Positions 5,580 to 60,039 of a DNA stretch of 64,000 nucleotides are shown piece after piece (within the stretch, counting starts at the first letter, position 1; each line of letters starts with the position of its first letter). The position numbers were made by a program, and so were the translations under genes. The DNA is from Branchiostoma floridae (Eukaryota > Chordata > Leptocardii > Amphioxiformes > Branchiostomatidae): the NCBI RefSeq assembly GCF_000003815.2, contig NC_049984.1, positions 8,554,420 to 8,618,419 on the forward strand. Direction: 5' to 3'. The notes beneath the pieces were generated by a model. The model ran no database searches. It was not told the DNA's origin and saw only the letters and a list, made by a program, of their open reading frames with translations.

Positions 5580-22635
<17,056 letters not shown>

Positions 22636-35091: not shown

Positions 35092-38000
35092 ATGTCTCTG
35101 CGATCCTCGCAACCTACAATCGACAAGTATTGCGAGCGGGCGTCAAATCTTGTCCCGACAAGAAGCACTTCTCCTGAGAATGAACTGTCCTGGGTTTCTG
35201 CAAGGCCGCAGGCTGGCAGCGATTTAACTCCTGAGTCAGCTGTAAAGAGGGTAAGGTCACTTTCACAGCGTCGCGGATTGGGCCGTTCTGTCACTGATGG
35301 TGCCAGTAACACACCCGCAAACGTGACAGCGCTAGCCTCATCCACGTCCGATGGCGCCACGACGACCTCTTCACCGTTTGTCCCCTCGGTCACCCCATCG
35401 AACCGCAGGGCAGCAGGGTCATCACGATCGCCGTCCAAACCCCACAAAGCAGGTGGACCGAGAGGCCTCGGCACATCTGAGCCATGTCGTAAACGGAAAA
35501 GCGAGAGTTTGGTGGAAAGTGGCGGCAATATTCTGCAGGTAAAGTGTGTGTGTGTTTAATCTCGCCACGCCAAGAACTAGAAGGGAATTCCCGCTTAGAA
35601 AAGGGACTTCCCCTCTGGATTTTCTGGAATGTATATTTCTATCAAGGAGTGTTTCCATGGATGCCATCCTCATCCTTTGGGCATCAATGCGATCATGCTA
35701 AAAATTGCCGTCATCATTCACGAAGGTTGTTCAACAAATGACAGAAATAAAAAGAACGTGGTAATATGTGACAGTGTTTATCAAACAATAGTAAGCTAAG
35801 GAATTCTTTATCTTTGTTTTTGTGTTTTCACATGTTTGTCTTTGACTTTGGAAGTCTTCCATCAGGACTTGAAAATTCAGCTTTGTTTAATACTGAATGA
35901 AAGTGATACACATAAAAAATGCAAAAGAAAACAACATGACTATCCACTTTTTCGAGTTGTTTTTCAGCTCATGTTGTAACTTCTTAAAATTGTAAAGTTT
36001 ATGTCAGAAACAGACAAAAAGTGATGCATGCATGGTCATCATTATGATCAATTCAGTGTGGTCTTAGAAAAGTGACAAATGACGTTATCAAATGCAGTGT
36101 CCTGAAGTAATTCTGTTTTAAAAGAGATTGAATTGTATTTGACTTGACCTATTTGCCATCTTTTCTAGTGTTTAAAACAATGCACCATTTGTTCCTTCCT
36201 AGGAAGTGGCAAACAAAAAACACAAAACAAAAAAACCATTAACCTCAACCCAGGTCCAAGAGGAAAATGAACAACAAAGCAAGGGTATGTTTGCTTATTT
36301 ATGCTTTATAGTTTGTTTGTGTAACCACTGTAACACACAAGTTTTGTACATTACCATGTAAGATTAGAAGAAATTCTCATGTATGAGTGTAGCAAGGTGG
36401 TTTGCCACCTGCTTTGCCTGGAAAAACAGGAAACTGTCAATCTCTTGCTAATCCCCTACCTGTCAACAAAGCTCGTTGACAGGTATACGACGATTCTGTG
36501 TTCTTTTCATGTTGAAACAACAAAGTATTTCACACCTATATTTTATGAGTTTACATCATGTATCCCACAGAGGATGGCACAAATCCATCTAGCACAATAG
36601 TGGGATTTTTTTGCCGGAATTTTTCAGTTGGTCCAGATAGTTGATGCAAGGAACTGTTCTCAGGGTATGCTTTCATACCGAGGTCAACTGAGATAGCACA
36701 GAAAGGAAACCACTCCAGACCCCTGCGATATACATGTGTCTAGTAATAAGTCCTGGCAACTGTAACCACCTTTCAGTTCAGCCCCTGGCTGTGAATAGTG
36801 AGTAGTCAGCCCACCCAGTAACAATATCAATGTTTTCTTTTCAATGTCCACAGAGGTCATGTTTCGGCTGAAGGTTGCAGAGATGGGGCTAAAAGAAGTC
36901 TTTGAAATTAGAGCACCGCAAAACCAGCCCATCCTAGATGCTCTTCAGGCTGATGCAAGACTGGAGAAAATCAAGAAGAAGATCCCTAAAATTTACCTCC
37001 ATCCCGATGGCAAGACTACCGTCAAGGGGATACCAAACATTGGCAGCCCCTGCAGTGTGATAGAAGGTGGAAGGTTCGAGGCAAGATTTGGAAAAGATCA
37101 GAACTGTAACATGTATAGTGATGACGAGCTGAAATGCAGTGAAAGGTATAAGATATACTTAGATGTTAGAAATCGAAAGAACAAAACCAAGTGGCTGACC
37201 AGGAGAAACCCAAACTCGTTCGATTTTCCGATCTTGGTCGACTGCCTTCCCAATGACACACTTTTAACAGCTTTGCTCAGAGATGTGAGGATTGACAACG
37301 AAAGGGTAAGGTATACTAAACTCATCTGCAAAGATAGTGCTGGGGAGATAAACATTAAACTCACAGATAAGTCTTCCTTTCATCATGACAGTGTTTTCAC
37401 TTGTCATGTGCTTAAAACCTCACAAGTCAGTGACCAAGAATGGGGGAAAGGTTGTGCAGGACAATATGACAGAATTTATCAGACTACTGGTATGTCAGAC
37501 AGTAAAAAGATAAGTACTGAGATTGAGAACATAGATCCACAGGTAGAAATAGCCATGTCAGGTACTGACAGTAGTGGGAGTCTGCAGAAAGACAAGGTAA
37601 CCCTAGAGGTAAAGAAGATCATACATGGGAGCCAGACTCAAGTAGCCGAGCTCCTGAAGGTAGACTTTGAGCAGAAAGAGTCAAGCAATGCAGAAAGGAA
37701 ACGTAAGAGGAAATTGGATCAGTTTGCAGAGCCTTATAGACAGGATTTTTACAATGCCAACAAGGGGATCAGTGTCTTATTGGTTGAGAAGCTTGGCAAG
37801 TTAGCTCGCTCTGTTGGTGTTCTTGTTAAAAATGGCAATCCTTATGGTACATGCTTCAGACTTGGCTCCAAGTACGTAATGACTAACAGCCATGTCACAG
37901 AAATGGCTGAAATGGCAGGCATCTGCAGTAATGCCTTTGTATTCTTAAACTACAAGAAGTCGAGGGATTTCGACAAACAGCCATCAGAGGATTTGTTGGA

Positions 38001-38529
38001 ATTCAAAGTTCTACGTGTCGTTTGTAGCAGTCAGGTTGGTGATCTAGATTACAGTCTGTTAGAACTGGACATTCCTGATGACCAGGCAGAAAGGCTTCCA
38101 ATAGGTGTAGGGCATAAGATAGTCAAGCAAGCTCAACAGAATACAACTGTGACAATCATCGGACATCCTGGTGGTAGGCCCAAAAAGGTAGACCCTAGCT
38201 GTCCCGTGGTGGGTCCAAATCACAGAATCACAGTTTATCTGAAGTTCCACCCAGAACTTTGGGATGATTATGCCATGGTGTACGACGCAAAAAGAAATAA
38301 CTACATGTCTGGGTTTGGTTCGGGTGCCTCTGGGTCACCAGGGTTTGATGAAGATGGGAACCTAGTAGTTATGCACGCATGTGGGTACCATTTGTACGAT
38401 CGGTCTAAGACTGAGGTTGAACAAGGAGTCAGAATGACGGCCATAAGGGATGATCTCAAACAGCATCTGCCAGCTGACTTGTGGGACGACTTATTCCTTC
38501 CCCCAACAGAGAGCATGGAAGTTGATTAA
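35092..38529 (+). CDS. FAM111-like trypsin-fold serine protease with PIP-like N-terminus (734 aa)
   Basis: Exons 35092-35538, 36203-36284 and 36854-38529; 2205 nt, in frame. N-terminus: MSLRSSQPTIDKYC resembles a PCNA-interacting (PIP) box (Q7, I10, Y13), followed by a Ser/Pro-rich disordered stretch and basic clusters (CRKRKSE, NKKHKTKKP) suited to nuclear import. Residues about 178-260 and 274-363 look like two ubiquitin-like folds, as in FAM111A. A linker with ERKRKRKLDQF precedes the protease domain (about 498-713). Catalytic triad: His523 in TNSHVTEM, Asp575 in DLDYSLLELD, Ser669 in GASGSP, followed by HACGYHLY. Family knowledge: FAM111A/B are nuclear, chymotrypsin-like proteases; FAM111A binds PCNA and clears protein obstacles at replication forks. 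The match in the protease domain (IIGHPGG; FGSGASGSPGFDEDG) supports the family. Orthology to FAM111A or B cannot be assigned. The almost single-exon body could reflect retroposition followed by gain of 5' exons. Confidence 0.87.
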
Positions 38530-42394: not shown

Positions 42395-45300
42395 CTACTG
42401 GATGACGCAAGCCTTACTGCCTGCACCGCTGTTGATGGACCCATTGCTGCCATTCTGGGCCCCACCTGCTTCTTGTGACTTATTTTGAGCCTGAATTACC
42501 TGGAAAAAGATACATAACAGTAAACTTACTTTGTAAAGAATAAAGCCTTCTGTTAGACCACAGCAAAATCCTATCAGTTGCTGTATTTCAAATGCTGTAA
42601 GCTTTTACTTGAATAGCTACTATTTCTGGGTAAAATTATTTTGAAAGAAAGTGAAATTGTAACATTAATGTTTTTACAAAATGTCTATGCTTTGTGGTAA
42701 AAATTCATTGGAATTTGATGCACAAAATGTAGTTCACTCTTGTGTTCCATGAGTGACATTTAGGAGGGGGTAAAGTGGTGGATATATTTCATTTGGCAGC
42801 ATTTTTGTAAACAACTGCAATGTTGGTACCTGTCAGCTGTTTAACTTTTGAATATAGGAACTACATTTACAAATAATATTTGAATTCTCCTTCAATCATA
42901 GGTTTGCAGACTTTGTATGGTTGCCATGTTTGCTTAAAGATATTTTCTGATGAAAGGATATCAGCCTCACAAGGTTGACAAAAGAGGATAGACATACTTA
43001 ACATGTAGCACAACTTGACTACAACTAATTGTTATAGAACAAGATCACACAAAACTAAACAAAACGTTTGTTTCTAATTAGGTAAATGGACTATAAATGG
43101 ATTATAGCTATCTACAAAACTTCAAGACAAAAGGGATTTTGCTGTCAACAAATTAGAGACAGTCAACAATCTGTGGTAGTTATGAAAAACATTAGTTTCA
43201 TAATCAGTTTTTATGTCTAAATCATACTGTGAAGTGATGTACAGAATGATATGAATTCCTGAGTGCGGGCATGTGCTTTTCATCAACATGATGTTTGCAG
43301 GAGAAACACCTTCAATTTTGAAACAACACTGGTACAAGAGAAATGGTATCATGAGTGCAAATCACTGTTGTTGACATTCGTGTTTTGCCATATGCTGTCC
43401 ATGGTGCTGAAATGTAATTGTTCTGTCACTCTTGATAGTAAATCATTATTGCATTAAACTCTGATAATTATTGAATGGCGAATTTGCGGACAAACATGCA
43501 AGTTAAGGCTGTTACAGTTTGATGAGTATGTCATTGACTGATTGCAATTGATTAGGCATAACATTAGTTATGTAATATTATTGTATTCGATTACGCATAG
43601 TTTCTCTCACATGCAGTTCTATTGTGGTAGGATTAAGATTGCTGATCTGGTATGACAAAAATAGATTTCGTTTTTGAAAATTAGAACAAAAATGTTTGTA
43701 GTTGATTTCTTTAATCCAAAGCAGTGATATTGGGGATGCATGATTTTGTATAGTAAGTTGTGTTCTTGCATGGCCTTGATATTTGTGCACACCTTGATAC
43801 CTGTGAGAATTAAAAGCAATGGTGACATTTCGTGTTGCTGATCCAAAGCAATAAAGTGTGAAGGTTAATGTGAGGATTCAGCAGCAATTCTTGACTTGCA
43901 GGTGAAGGCGAGAAGCTGACTGTTTATCCAGTGGTGCTAATACCCCCCTCACATTAGGCGAAAATCGATCGGAAGACGAGTCTAAATTAAGAGGAGGCAT
44001 GACCCTACTGCCAACGAAGAAATGGCAGAGTTCCCCCCTTCCCGTCAGGGTCATGCCTCCTCGTAATTTAGAGCTCGCAGACTCGTCGTCCGATCGATTT
44101 TCGCCTAATGTGAGGAGGGTATTAAGCATTCACACAAGTGTCATGAAATTCAAGCAATCTTATGAAAAGTGCACAAATCGCTAAGTGAAATTGTACAATT
44201 TCATTGAAACTGCAGTCAACCTCTGCATTGGGAGAAGATTTGTTTCATAGTATTTCTACCAAAAATGTCTCAATGAAACGTTTGCATGAAAATACTATAT
44301 TTTCCATTAGATTCATACATTTTGCATGATGCTTCCTACATTTTTCATAAAATTCATATGAATTTCATAAAATTTCTGCAAATGCTTAAGCACTTGTTAT
44401 GACCACATTTTTCCTTACTCTCGTGCCGTTATCAAGTGTTAATTTTACTGAAATGAGATTTTTGAATAGCAAAAAGCTGGTAAAGCTGTGAAGCAGACAT
44501 GTGAAGTTGAAAGCTTACTAGTAGTACCTTAACTTGCAAATAATGCAATGAACTACATCTACTGTGAACACTGCCTTCAGAAACTCCTGCTCCTACATAC
44601 TACAGTACATGATTCTTACTATCACTGGTCCAAGAGAAACAATGACTAAGACAAAGACACTAGCTTTATATTTTAGATGTCATGCACAACAACCCATGAT
44701 TTTGACTCTCTCCAAATGTAAGAAGTGATGGTAGGGACAGGATAAGATTGACAAGCAAACCAATTTTATCAAACTGTGTTAAAGTTGAAGAAGACTAATA
44801 GTATGTATTACTACATAAAGAAGTGACAGTGAAAAAAGTAATCTTGAACTTAATGAACAGTTGAGCTCTTCTTCCACTGGTCATGACATAGAAGACAGAC
44901 ACTATGCACAGTACACCCCAGTATTTACAGGTTCGTTGTACCTGTAAAATTCCCCTAGCTCTTTTTCACATGCACAATGACCAGTGTACAATTATAATGT
45001 CCTGTCCTAAGGACTGCAACCCTGTCCAGTAGCTTGCATGTTGGGTGGGTGAACCCGCTGGGATTCGAACTAACGACTTCTTGATCCAGAGGCATGGTCA
45101 GTATCCACTGTGCTACACACACTACTGTGGCTAGTTAGTAAAAAAATAATTGGTTTGCTTGTCCTTGATGTTTTGAAAGGATGTATGTATGGTGACAGAC
45201 AACTAAATGAAGTCAGGGAAGATGGGGGTGGGATTACAATTGAAATGGAAGATGGGGTATTCGAACAGATAAGTGATGGAGATTCGGTGTATTTTAACTT

Positions 45301-48300
45301 CCAGCAAAAGTCAAATTGTCCAGACAGATGTTGGTTTTTTTAAATAGGACCTGGTCACAATTGGAACAAAAATGAAAACTGCAGAACTTGTATGGGGTGT
45401 GTTTTCAATTAAAATAAAATGGGGCATGTCAATTAAGGTGAAGAATATAAATCAAATTATTATTTTTTTTTTAGTGAAGCAGGCCTCAGTGTAGTGACAT
45501 ATTTCTAAGTATGTGTTGAATGTAAGTTCTGTATGAACAGTTGTTGTACAATATACAGGGCAGCGAACTACTGAACAATTCCAAGAAGTTTTTAAGACTA
45601 AGATAAAAGTATGGGACTTTTAGGCCTAATTTTACCATCATTGTTATTACAATTACTTGGGGGGGGGGGGGGGGGCAGCACTATGTTTGGACATCTCTAT
45701 GTTCCAACAGCCCTAGGGTTAGGGTTAGGTTTGTGGGGATTGGAAAATAGGTTGCGTCAAAACATAGTAACAACATAGGGCTTGAGCTGATAGCAAATAG
45801 TAAAGAGTGTTACACATTCTCAGTCCATTGTAAGTAATGGAAAATGTCCACAAAAAAACTAAAAGGCTTTTCAGGGACATTGTTATTACAAAGATACAAA
45901 CATTGCTTTTAGTAACAATCCATCTGCCATAAATGTTACACACATATTACATACAGTTATTCAGAACAATTCGGTTACATTTAATAGGCACCATTATTCA
46001 CCGCACACCTTGTTGATTAATACCTTTAAAAGTCACCAAGCTATGCCCCACTGAACATTTCTAAAATTGAAATGCTCTACAATATTATATGCCATTAAGA
46101 TGATTGCAATATTGCTTTGGACCTATACCTTTAGTTAGCAATCTTTGTTTTCAAATGGGTGATTTACAATTTGTTTTGACATAGATATAAAATGTTACAG
46201 AAAAATGATGATTTTCTTCAAAACTCACCATTGTAAAAGACATAGGTCCAATTTAAGGTTTTATACCTAGCTAAATTGGCATTTTGACCTTGCATTGTTT
46301 TCTCAGTAATGAATTAAGACAGATTGAAGCCATGACCAATATTGTCAGATGGGCATGAAAGAACTCTAAATCTGATCTTTTTGGGGCCATAGGGATGCAT
46401 CCGTATGCCCCCCCCCCCAAAAAAAATCAAAATTAGGATTCTTTCATGCCCATCTATCAATATTTGTTACGACTTCAATCTTTCTTAATTCATTAAAGAT
46501 TAAACAATAGAAGGTCAAATGCCAATTTAGCCAGGTAGGAACCTTAAGGAAACATGGCAGAATTTGCACCTTGCAATAACTTTTCAGCCCATTGGTATAT
46601 AAGAGAGATTGGGTTGATGTATGCATGCAAAAAAAAAAGAATAGTCACCAGTAGAAAATACCAAAAGTGCAGGGAAATGCAAATAGAGGTGTGTTGAAAT
46701 AAACAAAATATAGAGATACAAAGAGGCTGGCAAATGAGAGGATTTGATAGCGAAAGAAATCAGATAAAGCAGAGACTAACATGGCTACTGAAACATATAG
46801 CCTTACATTTGGAGAGTCAGAACTGCCAGTGCCCAAACCACCATTCCTTTTTGCCCTGGGGCTGTTGTTGGCAATGTGGATTTGCTCCTTAGCATTTGGG
46901 TCCAACTCAAAGCTGTACACACTAACAAGATCATCCTGAGGGGGGTGAAAATGTTACACAGGTGAGCATGGCGTGGCTATGCTAAATCACATTGACTACG
47001 AACAACGAAACACGACATCGAAAGCTGCTCCTTCCACGAACACAGACACCTGCTTGACAAGGATTACGGCACAGCAAGCTGCAAAACAAGGTGAGTGCAG
47101 GTGCACTGGTTGACAAGAGGCCATTCAAAACAATCACAGCTACCACCGCACGACACATTAAGCACGTGCCATAGGTCGGACACACAGGAACATTTCTTTG
47201 CTGATGATGCACTTGACTTGTTTTGCAAATGCAACCATGCTCATGCACATGCCCACACTCAAGTATTATGGACCAGTCTTTTTCCAGCACAGGACGAGAT
47301 CGTGGCAAGCTTTATCAGAATTCTTTGACAGGGTCTTCAATCATATGAAACTTATAGGTACTGAGATTGTATATTAGAATTTTTGCAAAGCTTCCAATCA
47401 GTCCTGTGCTGAACAAAGACCAAGCCTTGTGAAATGTGTGAACATGAACGTCAACATGTATGCACACGTCGGTAAAGAAATGCAGACAGGTTAATGTTAT
47501 ATGGCAGAACCAAAAACACAGGTGAAGCAAACATGAAGATGAACATGTATATGTTGATTAGTGAGACTTGTTACACGGGTTGTCCTTACATTTGCACCAC
47601 TACCATCGGAAGACTGTTTTGCTCTCAGCATTTTCTGTCCTTTCAACATCTGAAAAAGATAGGAGCCGAGCACACATTACAGAGAAAGATTATGTGCACT
47701 GGAAATTCTCTACAGCAAAAAAACAAACAGTTACTACATGTACAAACATGCTACTTTTGTTTTCTAAGGATTGCAAAAGGGTGCTTATAGTGGGAAAAAG
47801 TGGTCAACAGCCCACACCAGATGTTAGCAACTGCTGATGCACATGCTGGTTAGTGCAAGCTTTCATAGAAGCTACCTGAAATGACTCCAACCACCATAAA
47901 ACCCATGACACCAATCTTTGGGCAGAAATTATTAGGCACTGGTTTGTTTTGTTGATGTCGAGATAAACAGAGGAAACGTACGCAACTTAAAGATGTAACA
48001 AGAAAGCTCGTCTAGAAGAAAAAAAATTAAAGCAGTACACCTGCTTTAAGATCATTATGGCATTCCAAGAGGGATGAATTTAAGTGTAAGTCTCTGTCCC
48101 TTTTAAGATAGAGTGTTGCCTGATATTTGGGTGCACACCCATCAACAGCAGATGATCATTGAAACATCATTTAACTTAATGTCCTTCAGCACATATAAAC
48201 ATATCATATTCAAAATATATTCTAAACAACTAGTTTACATCTTAACATGTGTCCAGTGCCAACCATTAGACCAGTAGACCAAACCAGACTATCCATCACA

Positions 48301-51300
48301 ATTTGAATGAATGAATGATAGTGATGAGGTAGTGCCTGTATGTCCATAAAATACTCATTTTTTAATGTTTTTGTTTTGCATTCCTACATTTTGACAGAAG
48401 TGGGCTGCTATGATCAGTCTATTTGATTTGTTTTTAATGAAACTATAGTATCAACAACAAAATGTCATCATTCCAAGCACTTCCCATTGTTCCGTAGAAT
48501 GAAACCTCTAGCCTGGAATCCAGCCTTGTTAACTTTTATCCACTCTTGAAGATCGATTTCCCGCCAACGAAGAAGCGACCCTTGGGAGAGGACTAATGCT
48601 AATAAGGCTGGAGTGGATCCGAGGCTGTGATAATCGTACATGTACATTACCAGTTCATGTAACACTAGACTATGACCCTCCACTGCAGACCTACCGTGTT
48701 GAGAATCTCCACTCTGGTTTTCAGCTTGTTGCCCGAGCTGTTGGCCACGGCAGACACGTGTCGCCAGAAGGGCTCAAACTGCTGTTCTTCCGCCGGCTTA
48801 CTCTTCCACTCTGAACACAGGTCCTGCAGTAATTCATGAAAAATGCTGTAATTCTCAGATAGATGTGTTTTCTTGGTGTCTTTTTTTAAAGTTAGCTAAA
48901 CACCAGTTTTGTACAGTAAGTAGAAGCTGAATAAGGCTGGATTATAAGTTTTGATTCACTCACATCAGGATCAATTCCAACACTTAACACTTATTAAGTG
49001 ATATATATAGTAGGATCTTAAATGTGTTTGAGGAGAGCATGTACTTGAGACTTGAGGTGCTAAAGCAACTCTGAGGTACAGTATAGTAGTTTATATCTAT
49101 AACGGTGCATGACAACATTACTGTAACAGTGATGCCATTGATTTCCCATAATCCACACAGTACCTGTATTCTCTTCTCCTTCTTCTCCAGTCTCTCAAAC
49201 TTCTTCCTCAGCACGTCCAGCTCGTTTCGCAGCTTGCTCTCCTCCGAGGCCTCGCTGATGGTCTGGCGGCGCTGCATGCCCGGGGTCTGCAGCTGTTCCA
49301 TCTGACGTAACTCCTGGATTGATGTGAGAGAAAAATACATTCAGTAAAATTCAATAAGGACTTTCTTATAATAGTTTAAGAGTGTGCATCTTTTCACTTG
49401 TCATCATTCCACTACAGTACAACTGTACAAGTTTTCTATCACATCAACTCTCAAAATTCTACCGGACGCCATGCACAATACTGCTATTTGAGAAAAAAAA
49501 ACATGAATCTTAAGTTATTTAAAGGGATGTACTACCAATGCAGCTATAGTTATATTAGCATGTCATAACAAAAAAACCTGGTTTCTAACCTTTGTTGTCA
49601 TCTTCATGAGTCTGTTGTCATTAACAGAGTCCTCCTGTACTCCATACAGCTGGAATGTGATGCAGCCGTGCTCAAAGTACCCAAGCTGATCCTGTAAGAT
49701 AACACTTGGGTGAATAAAAGTAGCCAGTGCCCTAACTCTGCCTTTTTCTTGATTTCACCCTGACAGCTATGCATATTTGACAACACACGAAGAGGCAAAA
49801 CTTATCTTTGCCATGGGACTTGACATGCTTGTAATCAACAGTTCGAAAGGGGCATTGTCCAATTTTTGGGTTTGATTCCTAGTATTCCTGCATGGCTAGA
49901 TGTTAATGAGAACTTTTGGGAAATGCATGTAACACAACATTCCTCACTCCATCCAGGTGTAAAATGGATGTGACTTCAGTTTAGGAGGTAAAGGTTGGTG
50001 GAAGGAGAGGGATGGGCTACCTCTTCCAATAACATGCATTTGCCCTGACGTGAGTTTACAACCCACTGCCCCTACTGCATCAAAGGCTTTATAGTTCAAG
50101 GTCTGTAAGTCAAAGTCTACCCTGACTGACCTCATTGACAGCAGGATAGGTGATGATCCTGTGGTGTTTGAACTCAGGAGACAGGGTAGCCTTGATGACA
50201 GGTGTGCTGGTGAAATCATCATCCTGGTACACCTTGTACTTGACATGCAGACCCTTGGAGTACTTGGCTTTGTTCACTTCTGCACTTTTGATGGTCACCT
50301 GTGTGGGGGGGTATAAATATCACAATTTTATTGAGCAGCAAGCTGTTTTTATTGCCTTAAGCATGCTGGTGATTTAATTTCTGTCAGTCCTATAGGAAAC
50401 TTGATTTGCGAGTCCAAATAATCTCACTATGTCCAAATAATCTCATAATGCCACTATACACCTCAGCACCAGCAAATCATGAAAGGTATCAACAAAGATT
50501 TCTATTGTTGAAAACTGCCTTTTTTTAAGAGTTTGGAAGATGATAGCTTAAGATATAGGATGAAAGTAACTGCATACCTTGTAGTGGAATGGTTTTCCTA
50601 GCAGCTCTTGGGGATCTTCAACAAAGAAGTCTTCATCAAGGGGTTTTCCTTTGTCACTGCATGGTGTGATGTTGACGTACAAGTTGCCCTCCTCTACTCC
50701 CTGCAGAGATCAGAAAAGAACAGGAAATAATCATGATGTGAAGTGCACATACATGTACCAGAGTTATCAACCCAGGGCTGAGGGTTTAGAAATTTGTTTT
50801 TACCTAGACCTATTGTAGAATGGAGCTCATTGCCACCGAAACTGTAGGGTCATCATGATTAGGCAAACTTTAAACAACGCTTGCAGTCATTTATGCATAG
50901 GTTAGATGTGACAGGTCATTCAGTGTGATATACAGATGCTGCACTGCCTTGTACATGGTAAACTGGTGTATAATGCCAAAGGGCACATTCTTAGAAGCCT
51001 AGTACCTTGTATTATTTTGTAATGACATTAAAGTGTCAACTACATGTTACAAAGCAAAAGTGACATTATATGATGACTTCTTAGCAGTCCATACCTTGTA
51101 GTCTGTTACAGAGAGTTTGTCATCGAAGTCCAGGGCATAAGACAGAGATTGCAAGAAGACGTTTGCAGTTCCGATGAGCACATCCTCCGGAGGCTCCCAG
51201 AAGGGGTCCTCCTCCTTCGGAATCTTCATCACATCCTCATCACCATCTAAATGCCTCTGGTAAAGTTCCTACATACATGTACAGGTGTAGAAAAACGATT

Positions 51301-54300
51301 AGAACATTGTTTGCACAGCATGTAGAATTTCTCTAGTCTCCAAATTAAGTAACAAATAAATTTATTTCAAAAAACGGTTACTCAAGCAACTGGATATGAT
51401 TTTGGAAACGGTCAGACAATTCAAGCAGAATCCACTAGTCTCAACAAGATTTTTATTCAAATAGATGAACAACTTGTCTCACCTGAATCATGTACCTCCT
51501 GTTCATGAACTTTCCCCTCTCCCACAACCAGGTGTTGCCATTCAGCAAGTTCTTCATCTTCACCACCACTCTGAAATAGCACCGTACACAACATAAGCTT
51601 CACAGACCTTGGATGACATTCAGTTTTCTATAACCATTGACTTTCTGCATCAACTAAAAGTTCATCTGTGTGTACTATGCACTTTCTGCAATGTATGATC
51701 CACTGCTTTCAGAGTAATGTGTTCTATCTGCATAACATGACATTGCAGATGTGGTGGGTTGCTCATTCCTTGACAAAGACTGGAGTTGGCCAGTTGAAAA
51801 TTTTGTTACATCCAATTTTTGTGCTGTAAATTAGAGATTAACCTTTCTTCCAAGTCTACCATACTAGTATTTCACTCTACCTGATTTTTGAGTGGCATTT
51901 TAGCAAATTTTCATGCCTCGGTTTTTATCAGGTTCTGTACTTGTCACACTTACTTTGCACCCTTCTTGCTGCCATAGCCCTCCATGGCTGCCCCACTGAT
52001 CAGGATGACTTCAAAGGTGCGATGTTTGTTCAGCTCCTCACTGATGGCGTTGACCTCTGACACCATGGGCAGCAGTTCCAGGATTTGCTCCTGGGCAATG
52101 ATTTGTTCTGAAATATGAAAGATTTTGACGAAACTTGTTAAATGTTACTTCTCAATCTCTTTATAGGACTGCTTAATTCGCATCTAAGCATTTTTGTGAA
52201 TTTTACAGAAATGGTCTGCATGACTTTCATGAAAAACACAAAGAAGCACAATGTCAAAATGTACAAATCATGAAAAATTTACAAAGTACTATGTGAAATC
52301 TTCAAATCACATTGTACTTGTCAAATAATATGAAAAATGCATCAAAGAAAGTTGGTATGACTACTTAGGCACCACCAAGGAAAGATTTTTAAAAATGGAA
52401 CTGGTAGTTGCCCATTCATTAGTTTTTTGTCACATTTTTAGAAAACATTTCAAATCTAATCAAGACCTTATTTTGATTCAACAACCTACCTTTTGACATG
52501 CCAGCACTGGCTGTGTCAAAACCCTTGTGTTTGGCAATCTCTTTCTGTGCAAAGTCCCAGTCAATCTTACTGGGGGTGTTTTCTGGAGCCTTGGGGTTCA
52601 GGGGGTTGTGGAACACATACATGTGGTTGGAACCTGGGAAAATTGAAATAAAAACCATCATAAAGAGGCAACACAATTTCAGATACTACCTGCTACATTT
52701 TCTGTTCATACATAGAAAACACTGTCACAACCAATAAGGTTCTGCCTCCTATCTTAACTCACCATAGGTCCATACCATGGGTCACAGCCATGTCTTAAAT
52801 GGAGTGCTGGAAGCTTGACTCAGACATATTAGCACTAGTAGCAGATAATCAATGCAGGGATAATAGCCTGCCCTGAGGTATATTTAATATATGATGTCAA
52901 ACGGCATGGTCTGTTCATAAAATCACCAAATGTAAGTGTTGAAAGTAACCGTTTCACTTTGCTTCAGAAAATTCTTTTTAAATATGGCATACCAAAGAGA
53001 ACTCTGTCCAGGTGCTGCAGGGTGGTAGGTCCTGTGAGAGGAACACCGTTGATCTTCGTCTTGGCTCCTTGTTCCCCTGGCTTGATTGTGGCCTCGCTGT
53101 TCTCAAACGTGATGACTGCATGCTGCTTTGAAATACTGAGAAAAAAATGTTCAACAGTTAACTTCATGATATTGTCCTGTTTTTGTCATATTGTTAACTG
53201 ATAAATAGCAGGGATAAAGTTTAACTGATTGCTAGACTTACCTCAGGCCAGTAAGTTGGATCATGGGTGGTGGGTTGGCATCCTTTCTGCCAATGGTCAT
53301 CTCTCCTGGCTCGATGAAGTGGAAGATCACCCCAGACAACATGGGGTCCTCGTTCAGGTTGACAAGATGGGGGTCCTTGCTCTTCCTGTCCTGTGTGTTG
53401 GCCTGGGCTGCTCCCATGGCCTCCTGCTCTTCTCTGTTTCTCTTTAGCTGTGGAGACAAAGTCATAATGTCACAGTTGTCACATGTTCATTGGATGGCCT
53501 CTGGATTCTAGTCTATCTGGTGGATTCCTCTTTAGAGATTATTCAGGCACTGTAAGCTTCTAGTGGTGGTTTATTCTCTTGGTCATCCACTACAGACTCT
53601 CTGCCAGTGGAGGTCTCTCCCTTCAGTCCCTCTAAGTCAACATGCATGCATGTTAGTCTCTAGATCTGCTAGTCTCATTGATACTAATCACTTGTCACAA
53701 CAGTGATTAAAGTATGTTCTTAGTATGTCAACTTGCTGGCACTATTTCATGTAATGTTAGAGTGCATTTAAAAATCATGAAATACATCAAGCCTGATACC
53801 TAGAAGACATTTGCTGTTGTGGTCTGTTTGTGATAGGGGTGAATCACTTGAAACATGAATGGACTACTTGCCAAGTGGTTAAATATGACCCATGAAGCAA
53901 CATAATGATATTTTTTTCATAAAACAAAGGATAAAGGCATATTCCAAGTATTCTTAACAATTTCAAGATATGGCGACAAACTACAATCTATACTGTTGTC
54001 AAAGGATTCAATCGTCACAAAACTGTCACATGAGCGTACCTTGTCCTCAAAGCTCTCATCCATGTCCTTCATCTGCTCCTGATTGGCCAACAGCTGGGCT
54101 CGGATTTCCTCCTCCATCTCTTTACGCATTCTCTCAATCTCTGAAAGGTGCAGATGGAATATTCGAAAACTTGTTCTTTTGCAATATTTTCTAAATTGAA
54201 ACCAATGCATGAACATTCGCAAGGTTTTCCTTGTTAGACCAATCTAACGGCAAATCAGAACATATTTATTCAGAGTCCAGAAAACAGCAGCTTACAAAAC

Positions 54301-57300
54301 AATCAACTGTGTTTTACATATATTTGTATAAACTAGAAAAAATCTATGCAGTCTCCTTGCAAATAATAAGTCTGATTGTATCTTTACAAAATTACACATA
54401 GGATTTCAAAGTGAAGCAACAGAGGATTTCAAAGAGAAGCAAAATTTGATATTTCTGAAACTTAAGTCATACAAAGTATGTTCTACGGATGAGGTCTTGA
54501 TAATACATGTTACATTATGGCAAAAGTATAAATTCTCTCAATCTACAAATCATGGAAACAATATTCAGGAGTACAGGGACAGACGATGTGGATCTTACAG
54601 GTGGTTTCATCACACAGCAGCAAAGAGAAGGTAAAACCATTGAAATAAAAGCACGCTTATGAACAAAACAAACCTTCTTTGCTGTATGCCCCGTCTGTTG
54701 TTCAAAGTGCACATGCACATGCAAAGTGGTAACATGCAATGGACAAAGTACAGTGATGCATGAACATACAACATGGATCTTAGAACAGTGCTGCCGTAAG
54801 TGTTAAAGGGATGGTAGGAGTGCACATGTCACATATAGAGAGGGAAAGATTTGATGTAATACTTATATAATGACTGAATGAATGACATGACAGAAATTCA
54901 ATTTTACATCTGAGATAGCCATGTGGTAAGCATGAGCAAGGTGATACGATGATGTGATGAAATACAGAATTTCAGCTCAATGTTTGTTGCTCAGGCTTAT
55001 CACAGCCATTGGTAAATTTCTGATAACCTGTATCTATCCACCTGGCTACATCTATCTGACACCTTGATGAATACTGTGTTTGAGAGATCTGCAGTGCAGC
55101 ATCCCCAGGTGTGCACAGTTTTGATGTACAGGAGTGCTGGGGATGCTGCATAGGAGATTTCCATAAATACAGTTTTCCAGGATGGTAGATGTATGCAACC
55201 TGGTAGGATTATGTTAGTAGATCAATAGAGTAAGGTTCTTGAAACACAACAAAAGTAGTACTCAATTCCAACGTTTTGAACAGAGATGAGGGGGGATACA
55301 AACTGAGTCATATTTGGGATGACATTCTCACTGCTGCAGCACCAACTACATTGGCTATAAGTAGCAGTGAGAAGTAGATCCAGCCATTCTACCCTGATGA
55401 TGGTGTCTGATACTGATAGACACCGAAACATTGAGTGTGAGTGAGTACTACTTTGTGTTGTGTTTTAAGAATCTTACGATATTGAGTAGTTACCAACCTG
55501 ATGTAATTATTTAAGTATGTTAGTAGATGTTACATCATTACTATATCATATAAAGTAACTCTGAAACTAAACCCTCACCTGCGGCGTCCATTCCAGCCCC
55601 GCCCGCCACAGGCATCGCCCCTCCCATCTGCTTCTTCAGCTTCTCGTTCTCCTCCCGAAGCTCTCGAATCAGCTTGTCCAGCGGGTTCTCGTTCACCACG
55701 GCCTTGTTCTTGATCTTCTTGGCGCGGTCCGCGTACCGCAGCGTGCTGAGGGTCTCGTCGTAGTTGATGTCAGCCGGTGACAGCGCAGCAATCATGACAG
55801 TTTTACTGTAGGCATGAGGATATGATAAAAACATGTAATCATGACTCACTATGAGATTTACTCATATAGAAATATTTAAAGGATATACATCAAACAACAA
55901 CATTATTCCTACCCTTACTGAACAAATTACGTTTCTAAGGCCAGTAAGGGGCATGAATAATTTTCTTATTAGAACCACCTTTTCATCACAAATCAGCAAC
56001 ATATTCCATATAGAAACTCAATAACTTGTATGCAGAAAATAGGAAAGCTTACTATTCTGTTTTCTTACATTTGACTTCTTAATTTCTTGATTTAGATTTT
56101 AAGGTACACACCTGTTTCCTCCCAGGGCATTTTGCAGGAGTTTTGTGAGGACAGAGTCTCTGTAAGGAACCATGACCTTCTTCTTACCACCACTCGACAG
56201 ATCAGCAAGTGCCTGGAACACACAAGGTCATGTGGAATATCTTAACCTGACATCATCCAAGTACTGTAAATATATTTACTCTAACTTGACATTCTTGCTT
56301 CAGAAGAAGCCCAAAACATTTGAAGAGCACTCAATCAATTGCAGCATAAAATAGTTACAAATGAAGACCATGACTTATGAACAAAAGAGAAACCTATACT
56401 GTCCTTGGTGCTGAAATGCCAGTTACATGTATCTGTAAATGCATCTAATTTTGCGGGGATTTAATTTTGCGGTAGCGGGAAAAAAGGACCTTTTACGGTG
56501 GTTTTAATTTCGCGGAAGCACAATTCACTATAGTCTCTTATTGCCATGGGAAAATGTTCACAGTGGTTTTAAGTTTGCAGTGAAGCAGCCACTGCGAAAA
56601 CCGCGAACATTAAGCCACCATGAAGGTTTCTGCATTTACAGTACTTGTTATGCACATCAGAATTTCCCGTTGGAAAAGAAGCCAAAATTTGTTAAGCTGA
56701 TAAGTGTGTCAGGTTACAAACACTACTAACAAGGTATTCATGAAAATCAGGCATTAGTCAGTCTGGAAAAGTTATTTTGTAACTGTCCTTTCCAATTTGC
56801 TTGCCGCTTTAAAATCACCTCAATTTTCTTCCACCAATGTAAGGGATTATCATAATACTCTCAGGTTGTTATATGCAATTCTACTAATTGCCAGATAACA
56901 ATCCTGGCAACCTGCAATAGACTCATCCTGACTGTTTATCACAATTAGCAGTTTACAAAATGATGGCATGGCAATTTGCGGGTTGGCCAATGAAAGAGCG
57001 GCTGCATGTTTGCTAAATTTACATTTCTATATTTTTATTTCGCATTTCCACACTTTGATGTGCCAGAAGATTATGGGATCAATTTATTCTGCAGAAAGCT
57101 GAAAAGAAAAGAATTTTGTGAGGTGTGTTTACCGAGATGACATTGCCCAGGGCTGACAGGGACTTGTTGATGTTGGCTCCTTCCTTCAAACGATCCCCAG
57201 TGGCGCCTGTGCTGTCGGCACGCTCACTACCTAAAAGTCAAAACATCAAAGAAGATTAAATGATGGGGAAGGAAGTCTTTGATATGGCATATGGCAGAGA

Positions 57301-60039
57301 TAAAAGTTATGCAAAGTAAAATGTGGTAATAATAGTCTCTTCCATCTGCGTCATGCTTTACCCGTGTCTTTGGTGGGGCGGTTTATATTCTTTATCACAA
57401 AAATTGTAGATGCCACAAAACCCTTGGCACACAATTGACAAGCTTTGTTGTTTCCCAGAAGGTTGCTTGATATCCATGTAGGTAGGACAAACGATTTTCC
57501 TGCTGTGTGACAGGGGCATCAACCTCTGCTTTGGACTCAGGCGTCCTTCTTTAGTTTCTTGGGAGATTTTGATTCAAAACTTGCTTCAACCTTTGGGATT
57601 TCAAACCTGTGTTCATCACAATGCAGGTCAAACCTTGTACAAAGGACCATCTGTACCCAAGGACCACCTGAAAAATGTGACTACTTTTTGATGGTCCCTT
57701 ACATGATTTTTCCCATTGACACAAGCATTAAGAATTCAGTCTATAGTGAACACCTGTGTAATTACATAGAACGGATTTTATCTGTCTTTTAAGTGATCTC
57801 TTGGCCAGTTTTGAAGGTCCTAAGGGGACCGTAGGATGGAAATAAAGAGTACTTCATACCTGCTAAATCTACCAAGTTGATGACACTGCTCTTCTTAGTT
57901 TCCTCTCCAGCTTCGTTCTTGGAGATCTGGTCGAAGGTGATGGTGACGACGGTATGGGCTCTACTGCTGGTGGCATTCATGTTGGTGGAGGCCACTGTTC
58001 TGTTAGCAGTACCTGGGAGAAACCAACAATATACATGTAAGTGCCAAATGAAATAAACATACCATAGTAAATTCTGTAGGAATGGAAGAATGTACAACTT
58101 AACATCACTGTGCGAGTGTAACCATGAGTTATCCTGGCTTTCAACTACAACAACAATGGACCCTAGCCAAACCATACGTCCAATACCATACGTCCAAGTA
58201 TCATAATACACCACTTTGCCTCACATGCTGCCAATCTGCAATATTCCTATAACTGCTAAAACACATCAATACAAACAGACACATCAATTGATTACATTGC
58301 AAGCTTATGGCAATACATTTTCATCAATTTTATGCACCGAACTTCAGATTTTTGGGACGGATGGTGTGAAATTTTCGTCCGTCCCGACTCCCAACAAGCA
58401 AATTTCTGTCCCACAACAGAGGGAAGATTCCTTGAGACAGCCCTGATTTTGCAGAGGACACAATTTTTTAAGCACAAAGTAATCATATTCACCTTCTTGG
58501 GTTCTCTTGTCGATCTCAGCATAGCTCCCCACAGCAACCTTCTTGAGCCCAACAACATAGAAGAGTCCCAGTTTGGGGTTCTGTCGCACCTGGAGCCCAC
58601 CCTTTGGATTGTCCTTACTGAGGAGGTCACGAACCTGCTCATTGTAGATCTCCAACATGGAGAAGGTAACTTCATATTTCTGGAACAAAAATAAACAGAA
58701 AAATATATTTCACATCTGCAATTCTGTTTTTCTGTGCATGGAATCTTTAACCATGGTCACAAGTAATACCATATTTTCTTGAATAAAGTAAACACTTTTT
58801 AAACTTTCCAAAATTTTGTCAAAAGTTGTTGGCAAAGTTTAGATGCAAAGTTTTGTTGCATACTTTATTTAAAGTTATTGCATTGACAAATGGTAAAAGA
58901 GCCTAAAACAAAGCAAGTTGTAGCTACACTTCTAGGCCACACCAAATTCATTTGTTTCTTCTTGGATTTTTTCAGAAAAAATTGTACTGGCAGGTAAAAA
59001 AAAAATACAAATATTTTTTTTTTCCAAAAGGTCTGGCTTAAAAGTTAAATGAATAAAAAAAAGCCTGAGGAGTTTAATGGCACATCTTATACAATGAATC
59101 CCTTCATCTACTTTATTTGTAACTCATGTTCTTGATTGTTGAGGTACAGTAAGAGCTGTACCTAAACTTCTGTACCTGATGCCACTTAAGGTACACATCC
59201 CCAATGGGCTCCAATAGGAGCAGAAATAGGTCATCCCCGCATCCATGACTCATGCTTTCCTTTCATACTGCTGCCAGGTTCTTGGAAACCACCATAATTT
59301 ATAACTGTCAACTTAGCTCAATGGTACCATGGGGAGCAAGGGAGACTAAAAATAACTGACAAAAGTTATTATTAGAATGCAAATATGTAATGGTCAATCA
59401 GAAGACAACCAACTGCACTTTGATACTTGATGCCATCTAAAACTAGCATCATTATTGCAGATTCAGTTATTTCCATGGGGATTCAATTTTGCAGTAATTG
59501 GAAAAGAGAATTTAGATGCGTTTTCACTCTGTGGTTAAAAGAAAACTGCAGCACAACAACACAATCATGTTTCTGGAATAATTTTCCCGGGTGAATCTTA
59601 CCGTGGCTTTGTCACCAGCCTCAATAGCCTTGAACAGTTCATCACAAGTGATAGGCACAATTCCTCTGAAAAAATCAAAAGAAAAGACATTATAGTTTAT
59701 AAAGACAATTGAATACACAAGTGCTGGATGAGCAATATACTGTCTAGTAGTACATTTATAACAAAATGCACAATATGGAAATATTCATTAGTTTATAGTT
59801 CAAAAGGACTATGTATTGCCAAAAACTTATAAGAAGTATTTTTTTTTTTCTAGCACCCAGGCTTCAATTCTACGGTTCAAATTTTAAGCAAAATCCTAAC
59901 CCTTTCAGCTGATAGTTTGGGACTTGTTTTCGAGTCATGCCTGCTGAAAGCAGTACTTACTTGTTGTTGCCATACCCCACCATAGAGTATGACTTTCCTG
60001 ATCCAGTCTGTCCATAGGCAAACAGAGAACAGTTGAAAC
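42395..60039 (-). CDS. KIF28: Kinesin-3 family motor, KIF28/KLP-6-like, 5'-incomplete, with C-terminal CaaX box
   Basis: Exons (minus): 60039-59961, 59665-59602, 58679-58493, 58012-57860, 57230-57133, 56212-56112, 55805-55579, 54140-54040, 53447-53242, 53135-52993, 52633-52490, 52107-51954, 51570-51483, 51268-51095, 50700-50578, 50298-50131, 49691-49590, 49313-49164, 48823-48695, 46935-46807, 42499-42395. All phases agree; 940 residues. Motor: P-loop GQTGSGKS, switch I NATSSRAH, switch [15 protein letters not shown], then the neck region [25 protein letters not shown] and a coiled coil. FHA domain: [12 protein letters not shown] through [11 protein letters not shown] to INGVPLTG. Then kinesin-associated region ([19 protein letters not shown]), a C2-like stretch, a second coiled coil and a Gly/Asn/Ser-rich tail ending SKACVIQ. 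Kinesin-3 motors are plus-end transporters; KLP-6 acts in cilia and KIF28 relatives are linked to mitochondria (known). KIF1 is less likely because no PH domain is seen. About 100 N-terminal residues are missing, in a gap or beyond. Confidence 0.9.
43938..44124. mobile_element. Foldback MITE, 187 bp with ~75-bp arms
   Basis: Left arm TAATACCCCCCTCACATTAG then GCGAAAATCGATCGG, AAGACGAGTC, AGGAGGCATGACCCT. The right arm is its reverse complement (AGGGTCATGCCTCCTCG, GACTCGTCG, CCGATCGATTTTCGCCTAAT, GTGAGGAGGGTATTA) with one short extra block. The loop is about 40 bp. No coding capacity. Confidence 0.8.
44985..45117 (-). repeat. tRNA-derived SINE head
   Basis: The minus strand reads TGTAGCACAGTGGATACTGA, CCATGCCTCTGGATCAAGAAG, then GTTCGAATCCCAGCGGGTTC. 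The A-box-like start and canonical B box (GTTCGAATCC) show tRNA ancestry. It lacks a matching acceptor stem and continues into a non-tRNA body, so it is not called a tRNA gene. Confidence 0.6.
46252..46548. mobile_element. Long foldback element, ~297 bp with ~130-bp arms
   Basis: The left arm (TTAAGGTTTTATACC, GCTAAATTGGCATTTTGACC, AATGAATTAAGACAGATTGA, AGATGGGCATGAAAGAA) is matched in reverse by 46425-46548 (TTCTTTCATGCCCATCT, TCAATCTTTCTTAATTCATT, GGTCAAATGCCAATTTAGCC, GGTAGGAACCTTAA). The centre has CATAGGGATGCATCCGTATG and a C run. Arm divergence suggests an old insertion. Confidence 0.75.
48283..48425 (+). repeat. Dispersed SINE-like repeat, family of 11770-11930
   Basis: CCAGACTATCCATCACAATT, GTAGTGCCTGTATGTCC, CATTCCTACATTTTGACAGAAGTGGG and GATCAGTCTATTTG follow the same order as the 11770 and 56925 copies. 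Confidence 0.45.
49840..50085 (+). repeat. tRNA-derived SINE-like repeat, second copy
   Basis: GGGTTTGATTCCTAGTATTCC (B-box-like), CCTCACTCCATCCAGGTGTAAAATGG, TTAGGAGGTAAAGGTTGGTGGAAGG, ATGCATTTGCCCTGACGTGAG. The landmark order matches 1225-1465. It lies in a kinesin intron. Confidence 0.55.
55095..55150. repeat. Short inverted repeat (14-bp arms, 28-bp loop)
   Basis: TGCAGCATCCCCAG (55095-55108) and CTGGGGATGCTGCA (55137-55150) are exact reverse complements in the kinesin intron between exons 7 and 8. Outer similarity (GAGAGATCT / GGAGATTTCC) is weak. Possibly the core of a degraded MITE. Confidence 0.75.
56433..56641. mobile_element. MITE with CTGTAAATGCA termini, 209 bp
   Basis: Starts CTGTAAATGCATCTAATTTTGCGG and ends TGCATTTACAG. 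Internally it has repeated TTTAATTTTGCGGTAGCGGG-type phrases (GGTTTTAATTTCGCGGAAG, CACTGCGAAAACCGCGAAC). A truncated relative (GGGATTCAATTTTGCAGTAATTGGAAAAG) is at about 59475-59535. Confidence 0.65.
56925..57100 (+). repeat. Dispersed SINE-like repeat, family of 11770-11930
   Basis: CATCCTGACTGTTTATCACAATTAGCAGTTT, GCATGGCAATTTGCGGGTTGGCCAATGAAAGAGCGGCTGCATGTTTG, CACTTTGATGTGCCAGAAG, GATCAATTTATTCTGC. This is the longest and clearest copy of the family. Confidence 0.5.
57622..57815 (+). mobile_element. Short mariner-type MITE relative
   Basis: AGGTCAAACCTTGTACAAAGGACCA, CTTTTTGATGGTCCCTTACATG, CCCATTGACACAAGCATTAAG and CTTTTAAGTGATCTCTTGGCC. Landmarks match the 19386-19562 copy in order and spacing. 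It lies in a kinesin intron. Confidence 0.5.

Follow-up and report, generated by a model that had tools for sequence, protein, structure and literature searches.

A KIF28/KLP-6-type kinesin-3 gene in the amphioxus genome

The window, namely the whole 64,000-nucleotide stretch of Branchiostoma floridae DNA that we analysed, carries on its minus strand a kinesin-3 gene of the KIF28/KLP-6 type, with 22 exons running from 60039 down to 42395 and no internal stop. Exon boundaries were marked by eye, and a script tested every AG and GT (or GC) within 4 bases of them, with the end fixed at 42395. Four stop-free chains were obtained, which differ by small acceptor shifts only and read exon v, the terminal coding exon, in an identical frame. 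Earlier motor exons lie outside the window, further upstream on this strand, with matching frames in stretches L003 and L005. The parts of the gene, each with the basis of its assignment, are as follows:

55579..60039, minus strand: exons a to g, kinesin motor starting at the P-loop (splice chain, Pfam)
51954..54140, minus strand: exons h to l, coiled-coil stretches and FHA domain (domain-to-exon assignment approximate)
49590..51570, minus strand: exons m to q, covering the KIF1B/MBS part and the part that aligns with the MATH domain of KLP-6 (domain-to-exon assignment approximate)
49164..49313, minus strand: exon r, coiled-coil-like by eye (splice chain)
48695..48823, minus strand: exon s, a segment with VEILNT at its end (splice chain)
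47590..47649, minus strand: exon t, phase 0-0, a short basic stretch (splice chain)
46807..46935, minus strand: exon u, phase 0-0, tail (splice chain)
42395..42499, minus strand: exon v, phase 0, terminal coding exon, with 15 Gly, Ser or Asn among its 34 residues and a single Cys (translation, splice chain)
42398..42409, minus strand: CaaX box Cys-Val-Ile-Gln, TGC GTC ATC CAG (direct reading)
42395-42397, minus strand: stop codon TAG after the CaaX box (direct reading)

The kinesin motor, FHA and KIF1B/MBS domains of the window protein each score above the curated Pfam cut-off, and its best solved relative is KLP-6 from Caenorhabditis elegans (E 2e-119), with the stalk and the MATH-domain region also matched. 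This alignment spans the MATH region up to residue 862 of the KLP-6 chain; Pfam itself gives no MATH domain. When the upstream exons were added and the motor was compared with solved chains, KLP-6 again came first (E 9.6e-142), followed by KIF1A (1.3e-115), and the 16 chains found at E<=1e-100 are those of KLP-6, KIF1A, KIF13B and one labelled only as a kinesin-3 motor domain. With its FHA domain present, the gene does not match the kinesin-7 type represented by CENP-E. The first-pass annotation of this locus, which had assigned the gene to the KIF28/KLP-6 branch of kinesin-3 and had read it as lacking the PH or PX domains of other kinesin-3s, agrees with these results, as a Pfam scan of 960 residues gave no PH or PX domain with E<=1. 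Other searches were negative within their scope: nothing in the PDB convincingly matches tail exons r to v (best E 0.21), Rfam returned nothing at gathering thresholds, and no relatives came up in the genome_contigs and viral_contigs collections.

Elsewhere in the window, a single 575-codon open frame on the plus strand (36802-38529), convergent with the kinesin gene, includes a Trypsin_2 peptidase domain and is presumably similar to FAM111-type proteases. The plus-strand open frames at 13733-14083 and 18773-19204 resemble a DEAH-box splicing helicase, by eye only.

The terminal exon and its CaaX box

The codons for Cys, Val, Ile and Gln, and the stop that follows them, were verified individually within 42395-42499 of the minus strand. 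We then asked how well exon v stands as an exon. First, on a splice-site matrix built from the other exons of the gene, its acceptor ranks second among the 453 AG sites from 46806 to 38600; the only AG scoring higher, at 43800, opens a frame of 29 codons. Second, among the 381 AG sites that follow exon u within 7 kb, an acceptor score of at least 6 is combined with a frame-0 open reading frame of at least 30 codons only in exon v and in its variant shifted by 9 bases. Taken by open reading frame length alone, exon v ranks 53rd of the 381. Third, synonymous codon use shows no clear bias and lends this exon no support, since 8.3% of 1225 non-coding frames of 34 codons score equally high. The intron that precedes exon v measures 4.3 kb, and the nearest AATAAA lies 1256 bases past the stop.

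The 9-base shift corresponds to a tandem acceptor at position 42490, where the use of the second AG would drop Val-Ile-Gln from the start of exon v while keeping the CaaX end. Likewise, since exons t, u and v are all of phase 0-0, skipping of either t or u would keep CVIQ at the end of the protein. A misreading of exon v was ruled out by the in-frame chain, the rank of the acceptor, the joint test of acceptor and open frame, and the codon-by-codon check. Thus, the CVIQ end of the predicted window kinesin is confirmed as observed, including the first-pass claims that the last exon is in frame with all preceding ones and that a stretch rich in Gly, Asn and Ser leads up to the box.

A second KIF28-type gene with the same type of end

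Paralogues were searched for across the source genome (513.4 Mb in 431 contigs). Homology to the upstream exons revealed a second KIF28-type gene on contig C10, present there as two copies about 0.86 Mb apart:

C10, ~6324000 (start of the stretch read) to 6346400: copy A (stretches L013, L007 and L008)
C10, ~7183800-7210845: copy B (stretches L016, L014, L010 and L011)
C10, 7210573-7210845 (L011, 3574-3846): last exon of copy B

Where copies A and B align over more than 150 bases, some parts of introns included, they are 75-99% identical, and they represent either a recent duplication or an uncollapsed haplotype. Further matches in the same genome search were weak (contig C1, E 0.14; contig C16, E 0.35).

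Over 520 alignable columns, copy B is 59.0% identical to the window protein, an upper estimate because only the tblastn-alignable pieces of the C10 gene were counted, and 56.0% identical to KLP-6, while the window protein and KLP-6 share 51.5%. The duplication which gave rise to the window and C10 genes is old, but apparently more recent than the divergence from the nematode gene. A tree built on 206 motor columns groups the window gene with the C10 gene, against KLP-6 with KIF1A, in 92% of 200 bootstrap replicates, although it holds four sequences only and long-branch attraction of KLP-6 to KIF1A is possible.

The last exon of copy B reads VEDVDAILSGNFSRKFKGTSGVVKEIKKYEKKKSLPNINPAPAPTPSTNGPASSNGPAGGSAPPGNQAAKSAPPSNKAGDMNKSTACTVQ-stop, with a helix-like start, a basic stretch, a linker rich in Pro, Gly, Ser and Asn, and a CaaX box; that is, the C10 paralogue ends in S-T-A-C-T-V-Q-stop, with Cys-Thr-Val-Gln as the box. 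This end had been picked up by its motif, when the DNA past the known exons was scanned for CaaX-like ends (four matches in both copies together), and the exon was therefore tested afterwards without the motif. It proved to be the longest phase-0 frame behind any of the 420 AG sites that lie within the following 7 kb, with an acceptor score ranking only 39th of the 420. The preceding exon joined to the start of the last exon, a chosen segment, aligns with the helix that follows the MATH region in KLP-6 at a score reached by 0 of 1000 shuffles, and when the whole post-MATH regions of copy B and KLP-6 are compared the score is reached by 8 of 1000. On this evidence, the last exon of copy B is taken as the probable true C-terminal exon of a KIF28/KLP-6 gene.

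Searched against the entire genome, the C10 last exon gives a single strong match location. In the 40 kb read for copy A, a 160-base probe from its end gives matches of only 12 to 13 bases, and copy A, which seems to be without the last exon, is for this reason no test of CaaX conservation. Directly downstream of the truncated copy A, at about 2785-3510 of L008, there is a short, coding-like tandem repeat made of CCYDPKGF units.

Conservation of the tail and chance occurrence of CaaX-like ends

Both KIF28-type genes in this genome end in S-x-A-C-[VT]-[IV]-Q-stop, and the alignment between them was followed towards this end. From exon q across exon r and into exon s, the window gene aligns to the C10 paralogue at a score that 0 of 1000 shuffles reach. 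The joined s/t segment of the window gene (around VEILNT/MLKG) is not significantly similar to the C10 helix (254 of 1000 shuffles), and neither are the two last exons to each other (718 of 1000); for the last 20 residues, the score is reached by 42 of 1000 shuffles. Since the last exons are not significantly similar, homology of the window and C10 tails rests on position and motif, and either the CaaX box was kept while the linker diverged or it was gained twice.

The comparison with the nematode gave a different outcome. To locate the native end of KLP-6 in PDB chain 7wrg_A, which lies before a cleavage site and a His tag, we relied on the published D458 being position 458 of the chain, with a full length of 928. 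Its tail (residues ~863-928) is lysine-rich, with no cysteine after the MATH region and no CaaX box, and similarity of the window tail to it is not supported (380 of 500 shuffles reach the score). A global alignment of these two tails was set aside, as it forces their ends together. Thus, the conservation that the first-pass annotation had named as support for its reading does not extend to C. elegans KLP-6, and not every member of the family carries the box, which may have been lost in nematodes or gained elsewhere. As predicted from these sequences, the CaaX box is common to two old paralogues and absent from KLP-6, the one other family member read. The lysine-rich tail of KLP-6, for which microtubule binding is reported, may function as its equivalent of the lipid box.

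To place a motif of four residues in context, CaaX-like ends were counted at open stops. In the window, 10 of 3418 are of the aliphatic kind, this gene included, and 13 are permissive; in the window plus 13 further stretches the figures are 18 and 46 of 9816, under a permissive rule that differs slightly between the two counts. CaaX-like ends therefore arise by chance at ~0.2-0.5% of open stops, which makes the CVIQ motif weak evidence by itself, and a genome with tens of thousands of genes would be expected to contain many accidental ones. It follows that the CVIQ end could be a chance look-alike that the cell does not use, as would also suit the low complexity of the window tail and the lack of a CaaX box in KLP-6. 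However, the C10 paralogue, despite being only 59% identical, has a box of the same type, in which Gln is again the final residue and Ser and Ala again occupy -3 and -1, and the narrower pattern C-x-[VIL]-Q is found at only 8 of the 9816 open stops, the window gene and the C10 paralogue both being among the 8. We consequently regard an accidental, unused box as quite unlikely.

Farnesylation, membrane attachment and a possible destination

CVIQ fits the CaaX rule, namely Cys at -4, an aliphatic a2 residue and an X among Met, Gln, Ser, Ala and Cys. It is moreover a proven farnesyltransferase substrate in vitro: in the measurements reported for the Arabidopsis enzyme, its kcat/Km of 8.9 is the best of four measured, against 5.3 for CVIM, whereas with Arabidopsis geranylgeranyltransferase-I the value is ~0.002 (PMC3017772). 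These kinetics accord with the first-pass expectation that a terminal Gln favours farnesyltransferase, an activity described as ubiquitous in eukaryotes (PMC10630089). Judged from its sequence, the window kinesin is likely to be farnesylated.

We consider it probable that the window gene codes for a kinesin-3 of the KIF28/KLP-6 type, with a flexible tail that terminates in a working farnesylation signal, and that the second KIF28-type gene has this signal in common with it. Farnesyltransferase would modify the cysteine of CVIQ, and the usual cleavage and methylation would follow. The farnesyl lipid would then tether the motor to a membrane, where crowding would raise its local concentration and, by favouring dimerisation, help to free it from an autoinhibited monomeric state; in this way the lipid anchor would take the role of the PH domain of KIF1A/UNC-104. 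As reported for KLP-6, the protein is monomeric in solution and dimerisation prompts its processive movement (PMC10945585), and the published list of its domains names no PH domain. However, according to a review, full-length KLP-6 is also able to move as a true monomer (PMC12646758), so that dimerisation on a membrane is perhaps unneeded. Overall, the first-pass interpretation is partly supported, and we infer the attachment of the window kinesin to membrane.

A farnesyl group may also act elsewhere than in a lipid bilayer. The box could be farnesylated and its lipid dock into a protein partner. At the kinetochore corona such docking has been shown for Spindly and proposed for CENP-E, whose farnesyl is reported to be required for the fibrous corona and for bringing in RZZ-Spindly (PMC10630089). 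Yet the KIF28/KLP-6 motors, in the published accounts that we draw on, act on ciliary receptors or mitochondria and not at kinetochores, and we assign docking into a protein partner a distinctly low probability. A further reading is that most transcripts stop elsewhere than in exon v, and possibly also elsewhere than at the C10 end, so that the CaaX box occurs in a minor transcript form or in none. This would suit the long intron before exon v, the stronger acceptor-like site at 43800 and the distant AATAAA. We hold it to be very unlikely, since a good acceptor and an open frame come together in exon v and its shifted variant alone, and since the same kind of end would hardly be met in two genes if exon v were not real.

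Returning to a membrane-tethered, farnesylated motor, we more tentatively suggest that the membrane concerned may be the ciliary one, because KLP-6 works in cilia and because the two tails share a Ser at -3 and an Ala at -1, the positions read by PDE6-delta; the residue at -2 differs between them. PF05351 (the GMP_PDE_delta family), which we take to cover both PDE6-delta and UNC119, has above-cut-off matches at two places in this genome, on contigs C11 and C14, each of which may belong to either protein. KLP-6 is described as a ciliary motor, with polycystins carried in cilia (PMC12646758), and the affinity of farnesylated proteins for the ciliary carrier PDE6-delta is reported to be set by the -1 and -3 positions (PMC5512577). 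For mammalian KIF28P, one publication reports a connection with mitochondria (PMC8077471), which would suit another membrane. It is tempting to speculate further on an ancient, lipid-anchored branch of kinesin-3, in which farnesylated KIF28-type motors would enter cilia as cargo of PDE6-delta, be released by ARL3, and then be held and activated by their lipid on the ciliary membrane or on vesicles, the nematodes having swapped the lipid for a microtubule-binding, lysine-rich tail; we hold this wider scenario to be rather unlikely.

If true, a farnesylated tail would answer directly how motors of the KIF28/KLP-6 type hold cargo and become activated, and it would add to CENP-E a further use of farnesyl on an animal kinesin. 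It would also be the first prenylated kinesin-3, as far as our limited search of the literature shows: none appears among the matches listed in the open-access literature, and the one paper there in which kinesin-3, farnesyl and CaaX occur together has FGFR1 transport as its subject (PMC10741464).

Comparison with known systems

The window kinesin combines features that have been recorded in different motors. First, with KIF1A/UNC-104, an autoinhibited motor that works on membranes, it has in common an architecture of motor and FHA domain. KIF1A/UNC-104 binds lipid through its C-terminal PH domain, which has no Pfam counterpart in the window kinesin. UNC-104 and PIP2 are treated in PMC10945585. 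Second, the closest relatives are C. elegans KLP-6 and mammalian KIF28P; motor, FHA, KIF1B/MBS and homology in the MATH region are common to KLP-6 and the window protein, whereas the lysine-rich, cysteine-free tail of KLP-6 is reported to bind microtubules (PMC10945585) and the window tail ends in a CaaX box.

Third, two kinesins from outside this family are known to carry a CaaX box. CENP-E, named in the first-pass annotation as the CaaX-bearing kinesin, is indeed farnesylated and also has a C-terminal box ending in Gln (CKTQ), but it belongs to another family, kinesin-7, and its farnesyl acts at kinetochores, in the assembly of the corona (PMC10630089). Nor is it the only such kinesin: KinesinCaaX of Trypanosoma brucei ends in CVIM, has been shown to be farnesylated and depends on this for its localisation, although it is described as kinetoplastid-specific and not groupable with known kinesin families (PMC3206815). 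Fourth, INPP5E and GRK1, farnesylated cargoes of PDE6-delta with high affinity, are not motors; like both amphioxus tails they have Ser at -3, whereas at -1 they have Ile or Met in place of the Ala of the window and C10 proteins (PMC5512577).
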